DNA of 64,000 nucleotides from Eubacterium sp. AB3007. GTDB lineage: Bacteria; Bacillota; Clostridia; Peptostreptococcales; Anaerovoracaceae. Position 1 is the first letter of the stretch, and the number at the start of each line of letters is the position of its first letter. The notes under the pieces were generated by a model, which saw nothing but the letters and a program-made list of their open reading frames with translations, was not told where the DNA came from and did no database searches. Positions 31,469-38,747 of the stretch are shown one piece after another. The stretch covers positions 62,001-126,000 of the forward strand of contig NZ_JIAD01000001.1 of the NCBI RefSeq assembly GCF_000688015.1. Reading direction: 5' to 3'. The translations under genes were made by a program, and so were the position numbers.

Positions 31469-31828
31469 ATGGCAAGAGTAAAGAAGGGTGTCAACGCCCA
31501 TAAGAGACATAAGAAGATTCTGAAGCAGGCGAAGGGTTTCTACGGACAGAAGAGCAAGGTTTTCCGTGCAGCGAACCCGGCAGTGATGAGATCTCTGCGT
31601 TCTGCATACATCGGCAGAAAGCTCAAGAAGAGAGACTATCGTAAGGTCTGGATCGCCAGAATCAACGCAGCTGCCAGAATGAACGGCATCAGCTACAGCC
31701 GTCTGATGGATGGCCTGAAGAAGAGCGGCATCGAGATCAACCGCAAGATGCTCTCTGAGATGGCGATCTACGACGCAGCAGGATTCGCCACTCTGTGCGA
31801 GACTGCCAAGGCTGCCTGCGGAAAATAA
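31469..31828 (+). CDS. rplT: 50S ribosomal protein L20
   Basis: 119 residues, full length: [23 protein letters not shown], then [21 protein letters not shown] and [19 protein letters not shown]20 is essential early in 50S assembly, and in Bacillus it represses this operon by binding the leader. RBS AGGAGGGG. Followed by a strong hairpin at 31841-31864. Confidence 0.98.
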
Positions 31829-31840
31829 TCACAGGACAAC

Positions 31841-31868
31841 AACCGCCGCTTTCATGCGGCGGTTTCAT
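31841..31868 (+). terminator. Hairpin terminator after rplT
   Basis: AACCGCCGC (31841-31849) pairs with GCGGCGGTT (31856-31864) around TTTCAT; the T-run is short, so partial read-through into coaBC is likely, since coaBC has no visible promoter of its own. Confidence 0.75.
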
Positions 31869-31887
31869 CGTATTCGGAGGAATGACC

Positions 31888-33087
31888 ATGAATTTCAAGG
31901 ATAAGAAGATTCTGATCGGCATCAGCGGAGGCATTGCGGCCTACAAGATCGCCAGTCTGGTGTCCCGTCTGAGCCAGGAGGGAGCAGAGGTGCACGTGAT
32001 CATGACGGAGCATGCCTGCGAGTTTATCTCGCCGTTGACCATGGAGACCCTGAGTGGCCAGAAATGCTGCACTGATACTTTTGACCGAAGTCGGCCCTTT
32101 GAGGTGGAACACATCGAGGTGACTAAGGATGCGGATCTGTATCTGATCGCGCCAGCCACCGCCAATGTCATTGCCAAAGTCGCCTGTGGCATCGCCGATG
32201 ATATGCTGACTACCACATTCCTGGCGGCGGACTGCCCCAAGATGGTAGCCCCTGCCATGAACACCAGGATGTACAGCAATCAGATCACTCAGGACAACCT
32301 GGACAGGCTCAGAAAGTACGAGATTGAGGTGATCGATCCCATGGTGGGGCACCTGGCATGCGGAGATACAGGGGCAGGGAAGATGCCCTCTCCGGAGGAT
32401 CTCTACGCGGCCATGGAGCGTCGCATCGCCAGAAAGAAAGATCTGGCAGGCAAGCGGGTGCTGGTGACCGCCGGTGCTACCTGCGAATCCATGGATCCTG
32501 TCCGCTTTATCACCAACCATTCCAGCGGGAAGATGGGATTTGCCATGGCCAAGGAATGCATGCTCCGAGGTGCGGAGGTGATCCTGGTGAAGGCAGCCAC
32601 CACGGCGACCCCACCCCAGTTCTGTCAGATCGCGGAGGCAAAGAGTGCTGAGGAGTTGTTCAAGACGGTCAAACGACTGGCGGTGAATGCGGATGTGGTG
32701 ATCATGGCAGCAGCGGTTGCGGATTACACTCCTGCAGAGTACGTGGACCACAAAGTCAAAAAGAAGGACGGAGAACTCTCTGTCGAGCTGAAGCGTACGG
32801 TGGATATCCTGGCGCATATTGGTGCACGGAAACGTCCGGAGCAGTTCTTCTGCGGTTTTTCCATGGAGACAGAGAACCTGATCGAGAATTCCACTGCAAA
32901 GCTACAGAAGAAGAACCTGGATATGATCATCGCCAATAGTCTGGTAGATGCAGGGTCCGGCTTCCAGACGGACACCAACAAGGTGACCATCATCCGTCCG
33001 GAGGGAGTAGAACGCTGCGAACTGATGAGCAAGGAGATGGTGGCAAAGACCGTTATCGACCGGATCGCAGATGAAATCAATGGGTAA
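31888..33087 (+). CDS. coaBC: Bifunctional phosphopantothenoylcysteine decarboxylase / phosphopantothenate-cysteine ligase
   Basis: 399 residues. It makes 4'-phosphopantetheine for coenzyme A: the CoaC flavoprotein part (about 1-180; KKILIGISGGIAAYK, and the active-site His in HIEVTKDADLYLIAPATANVI region, PAMNTRMY) and the CoaB part (about 185-399; VLVTAGATCESMDPVRFITNHSSGKMGFAMA and the AAVADYTP motif with essential Lys residues near VKKKDGEL). ATG 31888 is 7 nt after GGAGG; ATG 31882 is too close to the RBS. A strong terminator follows at 33110. Confidence 0.95.
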   Translation: MNFKDKKILIGISGGIAAYKIASLVSRLSQEGAEVHVIMTEHACEFISPLTMETLSGQKCCTDTFDRSRPFEVEHIEVTKDADLYLIAPATANVIAKVACGIADDMLTTTFLAADCPKMVAPAMNTRMYSNQITQDNLDRLRKYEIEVIDPMVGHLACGDTGAGKMPSPEDLYAAMERRIARKKDLAGKRVLVTAGATCESMDPVRFITNHSSGKMGFAMAKECMLRGAEVILVKAATTATPPQFCQIAEAKSAEELFKTVKRLAVNADVVIMAAAVADYTPAEYVDHKVKKKDGELSVELKRTVDILAHIGARKRPEQFFCGFSMETENLIENSTAKLQKKNLDMIIANSLVDAGSGFQTDTNKVTIIRPEGVERCELMSKEMVAKTVIDRIADEING

Positions 33088-33109
33088 TGGAATGATAGAA
33101 AAGATCATA

Positions 33110-33154
33110 GGGCAATTCCGGCGAGGGGCGCCGGGATTGCCCGTTTGTTTTGTT
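33110..33154 (+). terminator. Terminator after coaBC
   Basis: A 14-bp stem with one G-U pair (33110-33123 with 33129-33142), loop AGGGG, then GTTTGTTTTGTT. It lies in DNA where the 3' end of the convergent nuclease relic would be expected. Confidence 0.9.
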
Positions 33155-33171
33155 CGGTCCGGCTTTGTGAA

Positions 33172-33904
33172 ATTATCTCCCAACACATACCCTTCTTTTT
33201 GGTAGAGCCGTGCTCTGGTTCCGAAGTCAAGCCGATAGGATTCCAAAGCAAGGCCACCAAGATGTTCGATGATGATGATTGATCCGTCGTAACACTGGAT
33301 CATGAAATCCGGATACAGATTTCTCTCATTTCCCCAGTCATCGGTGACAATGAGAAGGCATTCGTAGCGAAATGGGATCCCTGCAGCCAGCAGAAGATTG
33401 TACCAGATGACCTCGCCCTTTGATCGAAGACGTGTGCCTTCGATAGCATAGTTCTCTGCGTCTCGGAACTCCTGGGGGTTGCGTGGGTAGTCTGCCGCCG
33501 CCCATGCTTTCAATTCCTCCATCCGTTGGTCGACAAAGCCTGTTTTGCATATCTCGCGACAGAGTTTTGGCATTCGTGCATAGACGCCTTCCACCGAGTC
33601 ATCCCAAAGATCTGTCATTGTTTGCTCCAGGATCGGCCGGTTGTGATCGAGAATTTCTTTGAAAGTGCGCTGGTAGATGATCTGTAAAACCTTTAGCAGG
33701 TCTTGGGAGTTTTCTTTGCCCAGATAGGTACGGATCCGCTTTCCACCTTTGTCGGTGGAAAGGTAGTAGTAGGCATGTTTGCCGACCTTTTTTCGTTCGA
33801 TGAAACCAGCAATGTCAGCGTTTCCATTTTTGTCCAGCAACTGGGAGATCCTCTGGTTTCGCTTCAGTTCGTTTTTTACGCTCCTTTTGACGGGTATGGA
33901 TCAT
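33172..33904 (-). pseudogene. PD-(D/E)XK-type nuclease relic, frameshifted near the start and 3' truncated
   Basis: A good start exists at ATG 33904 (minus), 7 nt after AGGAGG, giving MIHTRQKERK, but that frame stops within 30 codons. One frame over, the reading frame gives KNELKRNQRISQLLDKNGNAD and then a long domain with no start codon near its N-terminus. The switch falls at a run of six A (forward T run 33872-33877); five A would restore one frame. The core matches PD-(D/E)XK nuclease relatives: TRLRSKGEVIWYNLL, IPFRYECLL, NLYPDFMI and IIIIEHLGG supply the E, D and ExK-like positions. Family similarity ends at GYVLGDN (about 33172), short of the usual C-terminus; the frame then runs on antisense to coaBC to 32902. 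Probably inactive; sequencing error at the A run is the main alternative. Confidence 0.7.
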
Positions 33905-34135: not shown

Positions 34136-34987
34136 ATGCAGGAAGCACTGTTAGAATCACTTATAGATAGCATTAAACTGATCCCTTTCCTCCTTGTGAC
34201 CTATCTGGCCATGGGGATGCTGGAACGAGCGGCCAGTGAGCGGTCAAAGAAAATCATCAGAAAGGCAGGCGTAGTTGGGCCGGTCTGGGGTGCGCTGATC
34301 GGCGTGATTCCCCAGTGCGGGTTTAGTGCTGCGGCCTCCTTCTTTTATGTGGAGAAAGCCATCACGCTGGGAACGCTGATCTCGATCTATATGGCCACCT
34401 CGGATGAGATGCTCCCGATCTTCCTGTCGGAGCACGTGGCAGCATCCACCATTGTGGGGATTCTGGTAGCCAAGGTGGTCATCGGCATGGTCAGTGGTTT
34501 TCTGATCGAGGCGATGTTCGGATGGATGGCACGTAGACGCCGGATCCCTGCGGATTTCAGTGGTGAACTGGGGACCGGCTGCGGGTGCGCAGCAGATCTT
34601 CTCATCGATTCTGTGCGGAAGACCATGCAGGTGTGGTTTTTTATTCTCATCGTATCTGTGGGAATCAGTATCATCATGGAAGCGGTGGGACAGCAGGCTA
34701 TCTCCAGCCTCATCGGCAATGTGCCGGTGGTGGGTGAAGCGGTGGCAGGCCTGGTAGGGTTGATCCCCAACTGTGCAGCCTCTGTGATCATCACGCAACT
34801 CTATATTGATGGAGTTATCGGGGCAGGACCCATGATGACCGGTCTGTTGGCCAGTGCCGGTGTGGGGCTGTTGGTACTTTTCCGGGAGCATCACAACCCA
34901 CGACACGATCTTCGCATCGTGGGGCTGCTATACATAGTGAGCGTGACCTGGGGCGTTGTGATCGAACTCCTGGGTATCAGTTTTTGA
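34136..34987 (+). CDS. ArsP_2-type metal permease (putative manganese/heavy-metal transporter)
   Basis: 283 residues with about 8-10 membrane segments. Paired motifs GALIGVIPQCGFSAAASFFYVEKAITLGTLI and VAGLVGLIPNCAASVIITQLYIDG (each with a P-x-C core) mark the inverted-repeat family annotated as putative manganese transporter or ArsP_2 efflux permease. A cytoplasmic Cys motif GTGCGCAADL lies midway. Metal and direction are not proven. ATG 34136 follows GAGGAG. It is 10 bp upstream of a Fur-family gene and behind a Fur-like operator, so expression should follow metal status. Confidence 0.85.
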   Translation: MQEALLESLIDSIKLIPFLLVTYLAMGMLERAASERSKKIIRKAGVVGPVWGALIGVIPQCGFSAAASFFYVEKAITLGTLISIYMATSDEMLPIFLSEHVAASTIVGILVAKVVIGMVSGFLIEAMFGWMARRRRIPADFSGELGTGCGCAADLLIDSVRKTMQVWFFILIVSVGISIIMEAVGQQAISSLIGNVPVVGEAVAGLVGLIPNCAASVIITQLYIDGVIGAGPMMTGLLASAGVGLLVLFREHHNPRHDLRIVGLLYIVSVTWGVVIELLGISF

Positions 34988-34997
34988 GAGGTGTGTG

Positions 34998-35420
34998 ATG
35001 GGGAAAACCTACAAAACCGAAGGGCGAAAGAAGATCATGGATATCCTGCGTCAGTCTGGTGGGGTTCCTCTCAGTGTCCCGCAGATCGAGGGGAAACTGC
35101 AGGAGGGAGGCAGTCCACTCAACAAGACGACGATCTACCGTTATCTGGACAAGCTGGAGGACAGCGGCGATGTAGTGAAGTACGCAGGCGACGAGGGCAG
35201 GAAGGCTTTGTTCCAGCTGGTGGACAGGAAGCACCGTTGCGATCAGCATCTTCATCTGAAGTGTGTGGAATGCGGTGCATTGCTGCACCTGGATGGGCCG
35301 ACGATGAGCACACTGGCGGAACAGGTCTACACGGAGCATGGGTTCATGATCCAGTGCAGGAACTCTGTGATCTACGGATTGTGTCAGGAATGTCTGAAGA
35401 AGGAATGGATGTCTGATTAG
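34998..35420 (+). CDS. Fur-family metalloregulator
   Basis: 140 residues from ATG 34998 (a GTG at 34995 is also possible). A winged helix (TEGRKKIMDILRQ, LNKTTIYRYLDKLEDSGDV) is followed by the Fur dimerisation/metal domain: HLHLKCVECGALLHLDG with a CxxC pair, and LCQECLK with a second, which form the structural zinc site. Fur, Zur, PerR and Mur share this layout; which metal is sensed cannot be settled by eye. It overlaps nothing but follows the permease by 10 bp and probably represses the shared promoter through the palindrome at 34043-34063. Confidence 0.9.
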   Translation: MGKTYKTEGRKKIMDILRQSGGVPLSVPQIEGKLQEGGSPLNKTTIYRYLDKLEDSGDVVKYAGDEGRKALFQLVDRKHRCDQHLHLKCVECGALLHLDGPTMSTLAEQVYTEHGFMIQCRNSVIYGLCQECLKKEWMSD

Positions 35421-35453
35421 GAATCCTAATAATGTACATCACAATTCTATTCT

Positions 35454-35482
35454 TGAATAAATGCCACTGGAATGGTATACTT
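35454..35482 (+). promoter_or_regulatory. Promoter of the scaffold/GGGtGRT operon
   Basis: TTGAAT (35454-35459), 17-nt spacer, TATACT (35477-35482), 41 bp before the first start codon. No obvious operator palindrome overlaps it. Confidence 0.75.
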
Positions 35483-35523
35483 ACAATAAATTAGTATCCG
35501 TATTTTAAAGGGAGGTTACGACT

Positions 35524-36219
35524 ATGATATATACAAAGGAAGTCGAGAACATGTGCCCGGTGGGCAGAATGGATGCGACTCATGGACCTTCGCCGATTCC
35601 GGAAGAAGGGAAATGGGTGCAGGTCAAGGAAGTAAGCGACATCTCCGGCCTGACCCATGGTATCGGCTGGTGTGCGCCACAGCAGGGTGCATGTAAGCTG
35701 ACTCTTAACATCAAGGAGGGGATCATCCAGGAAGCGCTGATCGAGACCATCGGATGCTCTGGTATGACCCATTCCGCAGCCATGGCGGGAGAGATCCTGG
35801 TGGGGAAGACCGTGCTGGAGGCACTGAACACCGACCTGGTATGTGACGCCATCAACACTGCTATGAGAGAGTTGTTCCTGCAGATCGTCTACGGAAGATC
35901 TCAGTCCGCATTCTCAGAGGATGGTCTGGCAGTAGGCGCCGGTCTGGAGGACCTGGGCAAGGGCACTATCAGCCAGGTGGGTACCATCCACTCCACCGAA
36001 CTGAAGGGACCGCGTTATCTGCAGCTGACAGAAGGATACATCCTGGAGCAGGGCCTGGACGAGGAGAACAACATCATCGGGTATAAGTACATCAATACCG
36101 GAAAGATGCTGGAGTTCATCAAAAACGGTGACGATCCAAAGGATGCCATCGAGAAGGCGACCGGCACCTATGGAAGATTCGACGAGGCGGTCAAGAAGAT
36201 CGACCCGAGGAAGGAATAG
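35524..36219 (+). CDS. IscU/NifU-like iron-sulfur scaffold family protein
   Basis: 231 residues, longer than IscU. The scaffold fold is recognised from GIGWCAPQQGACKLTLNIKEGIIQEALIETIGCSGMTHSAAMAGEILVGKTVLEAL (key parts: WCAPQQGACKL, the ...IGCSGMTHSA loop, ILVGKTVLEAL), which mirrors the first and second Cys regions of IscU. The third IscU Cys is missing: the equivalent stretch reads VYGRSQSAFSEDG. An extra N-terminal Cys (ENMCPVGRM) and a unique C-terminal domain (about 140-231) are present. So it may bind a cluster differently or have another role. RBS GGGAGG; 12 bp before the GGGtGRT gene. No iscS or sufBC is adjacent. Confidence 0.85.
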   Translation: MIYTKEVENMCPVGRMDATHGPSPIPEEGKWVQVKEVSDISGLTHGIGWCAPQQGACKLTLNIKEGIIQEALIETIGCSGMTHSAAMAGEILVGKTVLEALNTDLVCDAINTAMRELFLQIVYGRSQSAFSEDGLAVGAGLEDLGKGTISQVGTIHSTELKGPRYLQLTEGYILEQGLDEENNIIGYKYINTGKMLEFIKNGDDPKDAIEKATGTYGRFDEAVKKIDPRKE

Positions 36220-36231
36220 GAGGTGCAGGAT

Positions 36232-37230
36232 ATGGAATTGTTCGAAAACTATGAAAGAAGAATAGACGGCATCAACAAGGTCATGGCACAGTACGGTATT
36301 GAGAGCCTGGAAGAGGCGCGCAAGATGTGTCAGGACAGGGGATTTGATCCCTACGAGATCGTGAAGGGCGTGCAGACGATCTGCTTTGAGGACGCTTGCT
36401 GGGCCTATGTGCTGGGCGCTGCCATCGCCATCAAGAAGGGCGCTACCGCAGCGGCTGACGCAGCCAAGGCGATCGGCGAGGGGCTGCAGGCATTCTGTAT
36501 TCCCGGCAGTGTAGCAGACGATCGTAAGGTCGGTATCGGACACGGTAACCTGGCCTCCATGCTTCTGGATGAGGACACCGAGTGCTTCGCCTTCCTGGCA
36601 GGCCACGAGTCCTTCGCGGCGGCAGAGGGTGCCATCGGCATCGCCAACTCCGCCAACAAGGTCCGGACCAAGCCACTGAGAGTCATCCTGAACGGATTGG
36701 GCAAGGATGCCGCCAAGATCATCTCCAGGATCAACGGTTTCACCTATGTGCAGACAGAGTTCGACTTCTTCACAGGCGATCTGAAGATCGTGGAGGAGAA
36801 GGCGTACTCCAACGGAGACCGGGCGAAGGTCAAGTGCTACGGCGCGTTCGACGTGAGAGAAGGCGTGGCGATCATGCACCATGAGAACGTGGATGTTTCC
36901 ATCACCGGAAATTCCACCAATCCAACCCGTTTCCAGCACCCGGTAGCGGGTACATATAAGAAGGAGAGAGTCCTTGAGGGCAAGAAATACTTCTCCGTGG
37001 CATCCGGTGGCGGCACCGGAAGGACCTTGCATCCGGACAACATGGCAGCAGGACCTTCTTCTTACGGCATGACCGACACCATGGGCAGAATGCACTCTGA
37101 CGCGCAGTTCGCCGGCAGTTCCTCCGTCCCCGCGCATGTGGAGATGATGGGCTTCATCGGCATGGGCAACAACCCGATGGTAGGTGCCAGCGTGGCTACC
37201 GCCGTCGCTGTGCAGGAACACTGCAATTAA
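36232..37230 (+). CDS. GGGtGRT protein, function unknown
   Basis: 332 residues from ATG 36232, 8 nt after TAGGAGG (GTG 36223 overlaps that site). The name-giving motif is ASGGGTGRTLHPDNM near residue 265. Other conserved-looking parts are CFEDACWAYVLGAAIAIKKGA, CIPGSVADDRKVGIGHGNLA, FLAGHESFAAAEGAIGIA and the C-terminal GFIGMGNNPMVGASVATAVAV. It has no signal peptide or long membrane helix; the Gly-rich loops suggest nucleotide or cofactor binding, which is inference. It always-adjacent partner here is an IscU-like protein upstream and a small Cys-rich membrane protein downstream. No enzyme activity is known to me for this family. Confidence 0.9.
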   Translation: MELFENYERRIDGINKVMAQYGIESLEEARKMCQDRGFDPYEIVKGVQTICFEDACWAYVLGAAIAIKKGATAAADAAKAIGEGLQAFCIPGSVADDRKVGIGHGNLASMLLDEDTECFAFLAGHESFAAAEGAIGIANSANKVRTKPLRVILNGLGKDAAKIISRINGFTYVQTEFDFFTGDLKIVEEKAYSNGDRAKVKCYGAFDVREGVAIMHHENVDVSITGNSTNPTRFQHPVAGTYKKERVLEGKKYFSVASGGGTGRTLHPDNMAAGPSSYGMTDTMGRMHSDAQFAGSSSVPAHVEMMGFIGMGNNPMVGASVATAVAVQEHCN

Positions 37231-37282
37231 AAGTTGGTGATCCAGCCCTGCTTGCGGAGGGCAGAAGGGAGATGAATCGTCA

Positions 37283-37486
37283 ATGGAATACTTTTTCAGT
37301 CACATCGGATACATCCTGTTGGGCGGTCTGTTCATCGCCGGCATTTGCATCGTGTGGGCTTTTGCGGCCATGAAATGGCATGCGGAGCTGGAAGAGGAAG
37401 GAATCGACCATGTGGCCCACTGCACCAAGGAGGGTTGTGCTGGTTGTTCCTTTATGGCCAAGTGCGGAACAGAGCGCAAGGATTGA
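37283..37486 (+). CDS. Small single-pass membrane protein with a CX4CX2CX5C tail
   Basis: 67 residues. One membrane helix (about 7-30, YILLGGLFIAGICIVWAFAA) is followed by an acidic stretch and a C-terminal HCTKEGCAGCSFMAKCG motif (CX4CX2CX5C) likely to hold an iron-sulfur cluster or metal, resembling FeoB-associated Cys-rich membrane proteins in layout. It is 52 bp after the GGGtGRT gene with AAGGGAG 11 nt before ATG 37283, and a terminator follows at 37508, so it ends this operon. Proposed role: membrane docking or electron/metal transfer for the two upstream proteins (inference). Confidence 0.75.
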   Translation: MEYFFSHIGYILLGGLFIAGICIVWAFAAMKWHAELEEEGIDHVAHCTKEGCAGCSFMAKCGTERKD

Positions 37487-37507
37487 TCCGTTTGAGAAAG
37501 TTAACGA

Positions 37508-37545
37508 GGAGAGGGCTGCTTACACAAAGCAGCTCTCTTTTTGTG
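37508..37545 (+). terminator. Terminator before the his operon
   Basis: GAGAG and CTGCTT, separated by a GG bulge, pair with AAGCAGCTCTC around an ACACA-type loop, followed by TTTTT. Confidence 0.85.
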
Positions 37546-37572
37546 AATGTACGATGGGTTTTTGTAACCCAC

Positions 37573-37608
37573 TTGCAACCTGTGCTTTTCTATGTTAACA
37601 TAGTAAAG
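37573..37608 (+). promoter_or_regulatory. his operon promoter with palindromic operator
   Basis: TTGCAA (37573-37578), 17-nt spacer, TAACAT (37596-37601). Over the -10 lies the perfect 14-bp palindrome CTATGTTAACATAG (37590-37603), which extends with one mismatch pair to 37585-37608 (CTTT and AAAG ends). This is a likely repressor site; no T-box or His leader peptide was found. A TrpR-like HisR/YerC repressor is the best-known candidate in Firmicutes, but its site was not verified here. Confidence 0.75.
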
Positions 37609-37625
37609 TGCGAAAGGAAATAACT

Positions 37626-38747
37626 ATGAAAATCGATAGAAACAGAATGACGAGAGAGGAGAAGACGCAGCTGGAGCTTCACTCCCTCTACCAGAAATAC
37701 GGTTACTCCAGGTTCAAGATGGGCAAGTTCGAGGACTATGATCTGTATGTACGGAACCGGGACTTCATTGCGCAGGAAAGCATCATCACCTTCAGCGATC
37801 GTAGTGGCAAACTGCTGGCGCTGAAACCGGATCTGACGCTCTCCATCGTCAAAAACTACCGCTATCAGCCTGGAATCACCCAGAAGGTTTACTACAGCGA
37901 GAACATCTACCGGGCATCCAAGGTGGACGGCTCTTACCGGGAGTTGACCCAGACAGGGCTGGAGTGCATGGGAGATGTAGGACTTTATGACACCTTTGAG
38001 GTGACCATGATGGCCCTGAAGAGTCTGTCCGCCATCAGCAGCGACTACGTGCTGGAGATCTCGCATATGGGCGTTCTGGCAGATCTGCTCAGCAATCTTG
38101 AGGAAGGTCTGCAGGCACGGCTTCTCAAGTTGATCGGTGAGAAGAACAGCCATGATCTGGAGCGAGTTTGCCAGGAAGAGGGCGTGGCTCTGGAACTTGT
38201 GGAAGCGTTGAAGACAGTAGTCAATACCTACGGGGATTACAGAAAGGTCCTGAAGAAATTCAGTACCCTGCCTCTGGGAGAACGGGGGAAGGAGGCGCTG
38301 CAGCAGCTGTCCGATGTAGTGGGGTTGCTGTCCAGTTATCGGATGACCTCCAAGGTCAATCTGGACTTCTCCATCGTCAACGATCTCACTTACTATAGTG
38401 GTATCCTATTCAAGGGATATATCGCAGGGATCCCACAGGCTGTCCTTTCCGGCGGCCGTTATGACACACTCATGGGCTACATGGGCAAGAAGGGTGGAGC
38501 CATCGGGTTCGGTGTCTATCTGGATGAGTTGGATAGATTGGATCCGGGGAGCCGGGATTACGATGTGGACGTGCTCTTTCAGTACACCCTGGAGGATGAT
38601 CTGCGCCTGATGTACAAAGTCATACGAGAACTGATTCACGGCGGGCAGACTGTTTTGGCAGAGAAAGAGATCCCGGAGAAACTCAAGTACAGAAAACGCA
38701 TCAGATTAGAAGGAAATGAGGTCATCACGGTTGAAGAATATGATTAA
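37626..38747 (+). CDS. hisZ: ATP phosphoribosyltransferase regulatory subunit
   Basis: 373 residues, a catalytically dead histidyl-tRNA-synthetase-like protein that pairs with short HisG for the first step of histidine synthesis and its feedback control. Class II synthetase motifs are visible in degenerate form: ESIITFSDRSGKLLALKPDLTLSIVKNY, YRELTQTGLECMGD, and GGRYDTLMGYMGKKGGAIGFGVYLDEL. ATG 37626 follows AAAGGAAA; the in-frame start at 37608 is less well placed. It is the first gene behind the palindromic promoter and overlaps hisG by 8 bp. Confidence 0.93.
   Translation: MKIDRNRMTREEKTQLELHSLYQKYGYSRFKMGKFEDYDLYVRNRDFIAQESIITFSDRSGKLLALKPDLTLSIVKNYRYQPGITQKVYYSENIYRASKVDGSYRELTQTGLECMGDVGLYDTFEVTMMALKSLSAISSDYVLEISHMGVLADLLSNLEEGLQARLLKLIGEKNSHDLERVCQEEGVALELVEALKTVVNTYGDYRKVLKKFSTLPLGERGKEALQQLSDVVGLLSSYRMTSKVNLDFSIVNDLTYYSGILFKGYIAGIPQAVLSGGRYDTLMGYMGKKGGAIGFGVYLDELDRLDPGSRDYDVDVLFQYTLEDDLRLMYKVIRELIHGGQTVLAEKEIPEKLKYRKRIRLEGNEVITVEEYD

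Follow-up and report, generated by a model that had tools for sequence, protein, structure and literature searches.

We analyzed a stretch of 64,000 nucleotides from the genome of Eubacterium sp. AB3007 (contig NZ_JIAD01000001.1, positions 62,001 to 126,000 of the forward strand; referred to as the window), in which two adjacent genes encode a distant relative of the iron-sulfur scaffold IscU (the IscU-like protein) and a protein of the GGGtGRT family. Our results point to this pair being an iron-dependent enolase (2-phosphoglycerate hydro-lyase) that is made of two subunits and has no relation to the Mg-dependent enzyme, a reading to which we give a probability of about 0.8. The present analysis contributes the obligate pairing of the two genes, the predicted IscU fold, the conserved cysteines, the mutual exclusion of the pair and enolase, one operon in which the pair fills the eno slot, and operons with fluoride riboswitches. 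The response to iron comes from published papers, and we infer what reaction takes place, that a cluster is bound and what each subunit does. An initial annotation of the same DNA, which had grouped the pair with a third gene, made no connection to enolase. The features of the pair, numbered on the window, are as follows:

35524..36219, + strand: IscU-fold (NifU-like) protein, 231 amino acids; predicted cluster-holding subunit of an iron-sulfur enolase
35671..35673, + strand: Cys50 codon (G-x-C-A-P-Q-Q-G); invariant in 94/94 sequences
35692..35694, + strand: Cys57 codon; found in 92/94 sequences
35755..35757, + strand: Cys78 codon (G-C-S-G-M-T); invariant in 94/94 sequences, precedes helix 79-91
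35842..35844, + strand: Cys107 codon (T-D-L-V-C-D-A-I-N); invariant in 94/94 sequences, precedes helix 108-122, likely place of the third IscU Cys
36232..37230, + strand: GGGtGRT protein (PF14057), 332 amino acids; predicted substrate-binding and catalytic subunit
37006..37026, + strand: GGGtGRT motif; low-confidence loop after strand 254-258, putative phosphate-binding role

The two genes were found to be tightly bound to each other. Among 299 genomes of the phylum, GGGtGRT occurred in 19, and the IscU-like family, searched for with its own profile (E up to 1e-15), was found in those 19 genomes and in no others; in this sample the two larger families always occur together, the test that the initial annotation had set. 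The sole genome with two GGGtGRT copies also has two copies of the IscU-like gene. In 100 loci (the window, 19 genome stretches and 80 named loci), the IscU-like gene was followed by an adjacent GGGtGRT gene in 94. The six exceptions are one locus with overlapping frames (L049), three truncated where the contig begins (L093, L112, and L122) and two in which GGGtGRT is not complete on the contig (L040 and L085); the IscU-like gene of L040 stands at its usual position. Moreover, the distances within the two families correlated, with an r of 0.78 (n = 90, omitting L069, L083, L084, and L109), and the best of 1,000 permutations reached 0.28.

Some loci showed variations on this arrangement. A 63-residue protein is encoded between the two pair genes in Parabacteroides distasonis (L223, 4800-4991), and in Collinsella aerofaciens (L222, 1-5993) a transposase gene separates the pair from sufD, sufS, and sufU upstream of it. 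Genome G207 (L041, 5735-10487) carries a second, divergent copy (526 bits) behind aconitase-family genes (PF00330 and PF00694), with a gene that by eye is PrpF-like also upstream. This copy may act on another hydroxy acid.

Eight pair loci (L024, L025, L029, L031, L032, L033, L065, and L102) lie behind at least two glycolytic genes (gap, pgk, tpi, or gpmI). The first six of these have gpmI directly upstream of the pair, at 84 to 182 bases, and in L024 and L025 pyruvate kinase follows GGGtGRT by 15 and 151 bases. By genome, the pair sits between gpmI and pyk in G248 and G174; in four more loci it stands directly behind gpmI (120 to 182 bases), and in two more about 0.7 kb lies between. At least one of six glycolytic genes was located within 9 kb of the pair in 14 of 94 loci.

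Because pair loci lay behind glycolytic genes, we searched for enolase. The genome of the window, a single contig that is 97.3% complete, gave no match to Enolase_C (PF00113); the same search gave a match in 14/14 control genomes. Enolase was missing in 14 of 27 pair-bearing genomes tested and present in all three pair-less ones. Among 119 genomes of the family, 38 had the pair and no enolase, 75 had enolase and no pair, one had both (G390) and five had neither (Fisher p 1.9e-24, a value not corrected for descent, which inflates it). In this count G372, whose only match (18.1 bits) is below the cut-off, was scored as enolase-less, and G384, with a short fragment, as enolase bearing; the genomes with neither are G310, G312, G387, G389, and G396, the last three inferred from a run of handles. 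The swap was also seen within single genera. Genus g1 includes a genome with the pair only (G000), one with enolase only (G294) and the one with both (G390), and swaps were found in genus g240 (G402 versus G324) and genus g232 (G399 versus G316). In the 299 genomes of the phylum, enolase was missing in 7 of the 19 with the pair and in 10 of the 280 others (p 1.7e-5), when three genomes with a weak or short match (G032, G157, and G193) were scored as enolase bearing. Lastly, enolase was missing in 20 of 50 named pair-bearing genomes, which carry no completeness figures and were picked from 80 before the result was seen. Judged by their titles, these 20 span Bacillota, Bacteroidota, Spirochaetes, and Lentisphaerae, and they include Oscillibacter sp. 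1-3 and metagenome-assembled genomes of Prevotella, Treponema, and Lentisphaeria. Three further named pair genomes (G426, G431, and G436; loci L046, L052, and L064) have one in-frame stop in their enolase gene, as if enolase had been lost after the arrival of the pair, or as if by assembly errors.

In the enolase-less genome G355, pgk, gap, tpi, the IscU-like gene, the GGGtGRT gene, and secG (Pfam names) follow each other on one strand; the IscU-like gene starts 13 bases behind tpi, and GGGtGRT overlaps it by 4 bases. A genome of the same family with enolase and without the pair, G368, has the order gap, pgk, tpi, eno, secG; G300 has pgk, tpi, eno, another frame, and secG, and G324 has pgk, tpi, and eno. 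Judging from gene order, the pair in G355 occupies the former position of eno. In G390, G294, G316, G308, G340, G248, and G174, eno is located apart from these glycolytic genes. The pair shares with the classical enolase (PF00113, EC 4.2.1.11) its predicted reaction and its place in glycolytic operons (tpi-X-secG and gpmI-X), and the two replace each other between genomes. However, neither pair protein matched the Enolase_C domain in Pfam up to E 10, and the pair consists of two subunits instead of one, with an IscU fold and an orphan fold. It is expected to use an iron-sulfur cluster and not Mg, and it responds to iron in the opposite direction. We regard the pair as a system that probably works like enolase but is not to be filed as a member of the enolase superfamily.

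The IscU-like protein scored 21.0 bits against NifU_N, just below the Pfam cut-off of 22, and at most 25.2 bits against the curated IscU, NifU, and SufU models, whose cut-offs are 92.5 to 273.3. With Pfam matches accepted up to E 10, NifU_N was its only match and GGGtGRT the only match of its partner. An AlphaFold model (mean predicted local distance difference test score, pLDDT, of 87.8) contains an IscU fold across residues 39-130. Among 94 sequences (short-frame L083 and L109 omitted, L049 and L040 added), Cys50, Cys78, Cys107, and His45 were invariant, and Cys57 was found in 92. The second and third Cys of IscU each precede a helix; in the predicted model, Cys78 and Cys107 each stand directly before one (79-91 and 108-122). 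By helix position and end offsets, Cys107 is likely the counterpart of the third IscU Cys. The claim that the third Cys is missing is not borne out, given this invariant residue at the opening of a helix, which had been overlooked because about 11 residues ahead of it are deleted (alignment by eye). The lost segment is where the LPPVK loop would lie, through which Hsp70 triggers cluster release in ISCU, according to the relevant passage of PMC6205161. Both the Asp of the C-G-D motif and an LPPVK-type loop are absent from the IscU-like protein (CAPQQG and NTDLVC), and the genome's own NifU has KCGD and LPDYKMHC. The loss of these release features suggests that the cluster would stay on what appears to be a converted scaffold. 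In summary, the protein has the predicted fold and the three conserved ligand Cys of IscU/NifU_N scaffolds (PF01592), but it differs from them in the roughly 11 missing residues, a first Cys that has moved, an extra C-terminal part of about 90 residues, the absent C-G-D Asp, and a fixed partner, GGGtGRT. The iron-sulfur link suggested earlier is backed by the predicted fold together with the conserved Cys.

The partner was assigned to GGGtGRT with 647.4 bits (cut-off 27) over 326/327 positions of PF14057, confirming its earlier identification. Its predicted model has a Rossmann-like region at 112-320, and its alignment includes invariant His, Lys, Asp, and Glu residues. A GGGtGRT protein at 68% identity was also noted on large replicons of the marine Vibrio sp. 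THAF191d, THAF191c, and THAF64.

According to our model, the IscU-fold subunit would hold an iron-sulfur cluster via Cys50, Cys78, and Cys107. A [4Fe-4S] cluster bound by three invariant Cys would keep one of its irons free, and this iron, as a Lewis acid, would bind the C3 hydroxyl and the carboxylate of 2-phosphoglycerate. The GGGtGRT subunit would bind the phosphate through the glycine-rich GGGtGRT loop of its Rossmann-like region and supply the base from one of its invariant His, Lys, Asp, or Glu residues, the product being phosphoenolpyruvate. In iron-sulfur L-serine dehydratase and in aconitase, a cluster iron acts as a Lewis acid on hydroxyl and carboxylate. The proposed chemistry is the same as in hydro-lyases of this type, in which an open [4Fe-4S] iron eliminates a beta-hydroxyl adjacent to an acidic alpha-hydrogen, although the Pfam scan found no sequence relation between them and the pair.

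Published iron responses concern both the pair and enolase. In the early-phase proteome of Clostridium pasteurianum, GGGtGRT was 7.1-fold higher with iron and its NifU-related neighbor 2.4- and 3.7-fold higher (two spots), and enolase was 4.1- and 4.8-fold higher without iron, also in two spots (PMC5395762). The relevant part of a study on Bacteroides thetaiotaomicron reports that the pair, BT0173-0174, falls 11- to 12.8-fold in iron depletion and that BT4570-72, three genes including eno, is listed as rising 2.0- to 7.7-fold, with P 0.144 (PMC10434189). The iron-response passages of these two papers do not draw the link between pair and enolase. Taken together, the data from two phyla point to the pair going up and enolase going down with iron, which fits an iron enzyme and its iron-free substitute. 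The pair would be made when iron is plentiful, and species with both enzymes would use the classical enolase when iron is scarce.

A second connection involves fluoride, a classic inhibitor of Mg-enolase. In G186, G089, and G125, each from a different family, two crcB-type fluoride exporter genes and a DUF190-like gene stand behind the pair (checked with Pfam for both crcB genes and DUF190 of L037 and for the first crcB of L038 and L039). A fluoride riboswitch (RF01734) lies just upstream of the pair operon in L037 (58.5 bits) and L039 (57.3 bits); in L038 it lies (46.5 bits) upstream of a TauE gene that precedes the pair-crcB-crcB-DUF190 order. In the other loci searched (100 plus 33 sources), a model made from these sites and three more detected no riboswitch beside the pair, its one weak match lying in another part of L206. 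The classical enolase is present as well in G186 and G089, and G125 has none. Since fluoride inhibits Mg-enolase, a fluoride-induced, Mg-free enolase makes sense. We lean, with less assurance than for the enolase reading itself, toward a wider proposal: that the pair would be a second, independent enolase, an oxygen-sensitive, fluoride-tolerant iron-sulfur hydro-lyase made from a converted scaffold and the orphan GGGtGRT fold, that it has repeatedly displaced the classical enzyme in at least four phyla, and that where both were kept glycolysis would switch between iron and magnesium enolase by iron and fluoride.

Several observations weigh against the enolase reading. Both enzymes are present in 12 of the 19 phylum pair genomes and in 30 of the 50 named ones (fragments counted), and neither is present in 5 of the 119 family genomes and in 10 of the 280 pair-less genomes of the phylum, nine of these ten being less than 95% complete and G042 standing at 97%. 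The glycolytic loci represent few lineages, one family accounting for six of the eight; a pair in the eno slot of a genome without enolase was seen once, in G355, which is 87% complete; and the fluoride riboswitch is found beside the pair in 3 loci only. Structure comparison gave no confident match for the GGGtGRT fold, and the occurrence in Vibrio means that the protein is not confined to strict anaerobes. The rise of the B. thetaiotaomicron eno stretch has a P value of 0.144, with no separate value given for eno itself in that part of the study (PMC10434189). Finally, enolase activity in extracts of the enolase-less Butyrivibrio proteoclasticus was only very low in a coupled assay (Kelly 2010, PMC2914790); as the assay description, in the part concerned, names no anaerobic handling, an oxygen-labile enzyme could have been missed, but the finding counts against the reading all the same.

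Other functions have to be considered. The genomic evidence says only that the pair makes the classical enolase dispensable, which would equally be the case if it provided another bypass, for example from 2- or 3-phosphoglycerate to pyruvate, with phosphoenolpyruvate then made from pyruvate elsewhere. We hold this to be unlikely, as gpmI is directly upstream in six loci and pyruvate kinase directly downstream in two of those, an arrangement that fits 2-phosphoglycerate as the substrate and phosphoenolpyruvate as the product, and as the pair is swapped for eno in G355. Slightly less probable still is that the pair serves as a dedicated assembly or repair scaffold for another iron-sulfur enolase encoded elsewhere. 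The IscU fold and the suf genes near the pair in C. aerofaciens would agree with such a role, but the pair falls in iron shortage, where assembly genes usually rise; it fills the eno slot alone; and its IscU-like protein is without the LPPVK loop and the Asp of C-G-D. Alternatively, the pair could store or carry iron, sulfur, or clusters, and the enolase exclusion would be an indirect effect of lineage or lifestyle. Expression in many gut anaerobes (PMC11204068) and higher levels with iron (PMC5395762) are consistent with this idea, which we nevertheless consider improbable, since exclusion within single genera, the eno-slot operon, and fluoride riboswitches would all be unexpected.

Least probable of all, to the point that we give it hardly any weight, is the proposal of the initial annotation itself, a membrane-linked three-protein device for metal, iron-sulfur, or sulfur/selenium, in which a small Cys-rich membrane protein docks the complex. 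By position, the three genes form one transcription unit in the window, and the C-X4-C-X2-C-X5-C tail of the third protein is as described. However, the small gene stands directly behind the pair in only 2 of 34 family loci (that of the window and a single further one; the loci are from 32 of the 39 pair genomes in the family), which argues against the three-gene module. Relatives of the small protein were found in 14 of the 119 family genomes, and 10 of the 13 other than that of the window have no GGGtGRT, which speaks against membrane docking. In the 11 relative loci read, the small gene is behind the pair in one (G380), and in 10 of the 11 it has rplT or coaBC-like genes nearby or an ArsP_2 permease next to it (rplT and coaBC-like genes named by eye in the relatives and by Pfam in the window); the Cys tail is gone in 4. 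The selenium idea fares no better, as a strong SelD match was present in 9 of the 19 pair genomes and absent from 10, and it was not found in the genome of the window. In three of the 34 family loci (the window, L169, and L193) the pair, too, follows rplT-coaBC, and the small gene is therefore a positional neighbor and not a partner. The module consists of two genes, with the small membrane protein outside it.

The small protein is of the same general kind as the FeoB-associated Cys-rich membrane proteins (PF12669), to which the G380 relative scores 23.1 bits (cut-off 27), but the protein of the window gives no match, and its neighbors are coaBC, an ArsP_2 permease, or others. This small membrane protein, of MEYF type, recurs in the family near rplT/coaBC-like genes, with or without the Cys tail (window 31469-33087 and loci L162-L172). 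An ArsP_2-type permease, encoded in the window at 34136-34987, stands beside the small Cys-rich protein in two other genomes (L165, 9017-9904; L166, 8686-9576; named by Pfam for the window and L165 and by likeness for L166), so these two, rather than the pair, may belong together. An ArsP_2 relative was near the pair in 2 of the 34 family loci.

The remaining features of the locus are as follows:

35453..35481, + strand: promoter-like site, TTGAAT-17-TATACT, with TG before the -10 (extended -10)
37283..37486, + strand: small Cys-rich membrane protein, 67 amino acids; neighbor, judged outside the system
37504..37544, + strand: terminator-like hairpin with a T-rich 3' side; -26.9 kcal/mol, z -6.0

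All three open frames (35524-36219, 36232-37230, and 37283-37486) were confirmed on the + strand. The single promoter described earlier exists as a site at 35453-35481, but it is weak evidence alone because such sites are not above the chance count (2 seen in 34500-38500 versus 3.0 expected). For the terminator, a pattern scan found none at the locus, and folding of 37500-37550 gave the strong hairpin listed above. The bordering metal permease is an ArsP_2/arsenic_eff protein adjoining a Fur-family gene. No desulfurase was seen by eye among the frames of 31 to 42 kb, the part of the window scanned, which agrees with the absence stated earlier, but a desulfurase gene paired with nifU is present in another part of the genome, which also encodes a SUFBD-core protein. 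An open frame of 312 amino acids was also noted at 32902-33840 on the - strand, its 33000-33840 part being without a Pfam match.

Bacteria without enolase have been reported since 2010, according to the passages concerned (PMC2914790, PMC3558957, PMC6118326, PMC7523725, and PMC11257099), B. proteoclasticus being reported as the first such organism (PMC2914790). As far as the relevant section goes, the Hungate1000 study reports the absence of enolase from about half of the Butyrivibrio strains and also from Prevotella and Lachnospiraceae, obtained no substantial insight from a search for a complementing gain of function, and puts enolase-less isolates in IMG at under 0.5% of a total above 30,000 (PMC6118326). 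Passages of reviews from 2023 and 2024 describe the substitute as still unknown (PMC11026938 and PMC11187502), and this literature states as an open question how Butyrivibrio, Prevotella, and Oscillibacter do without enolase; its passages on the subject do not mention the pair. Through the pair, the question becomes a direct assay. If our reading is true, it would explain how many gut bacteria live without a normal enolase gene, give a function to a protein family detected in proteomes of gut and rumen, and mend metabolic models in which these species have a broken glycolysis. It would also tie the central metabolism of anaerobes to iron supply and reveal a second, unrelated version of a glycolytic enzyme thought to be universal.

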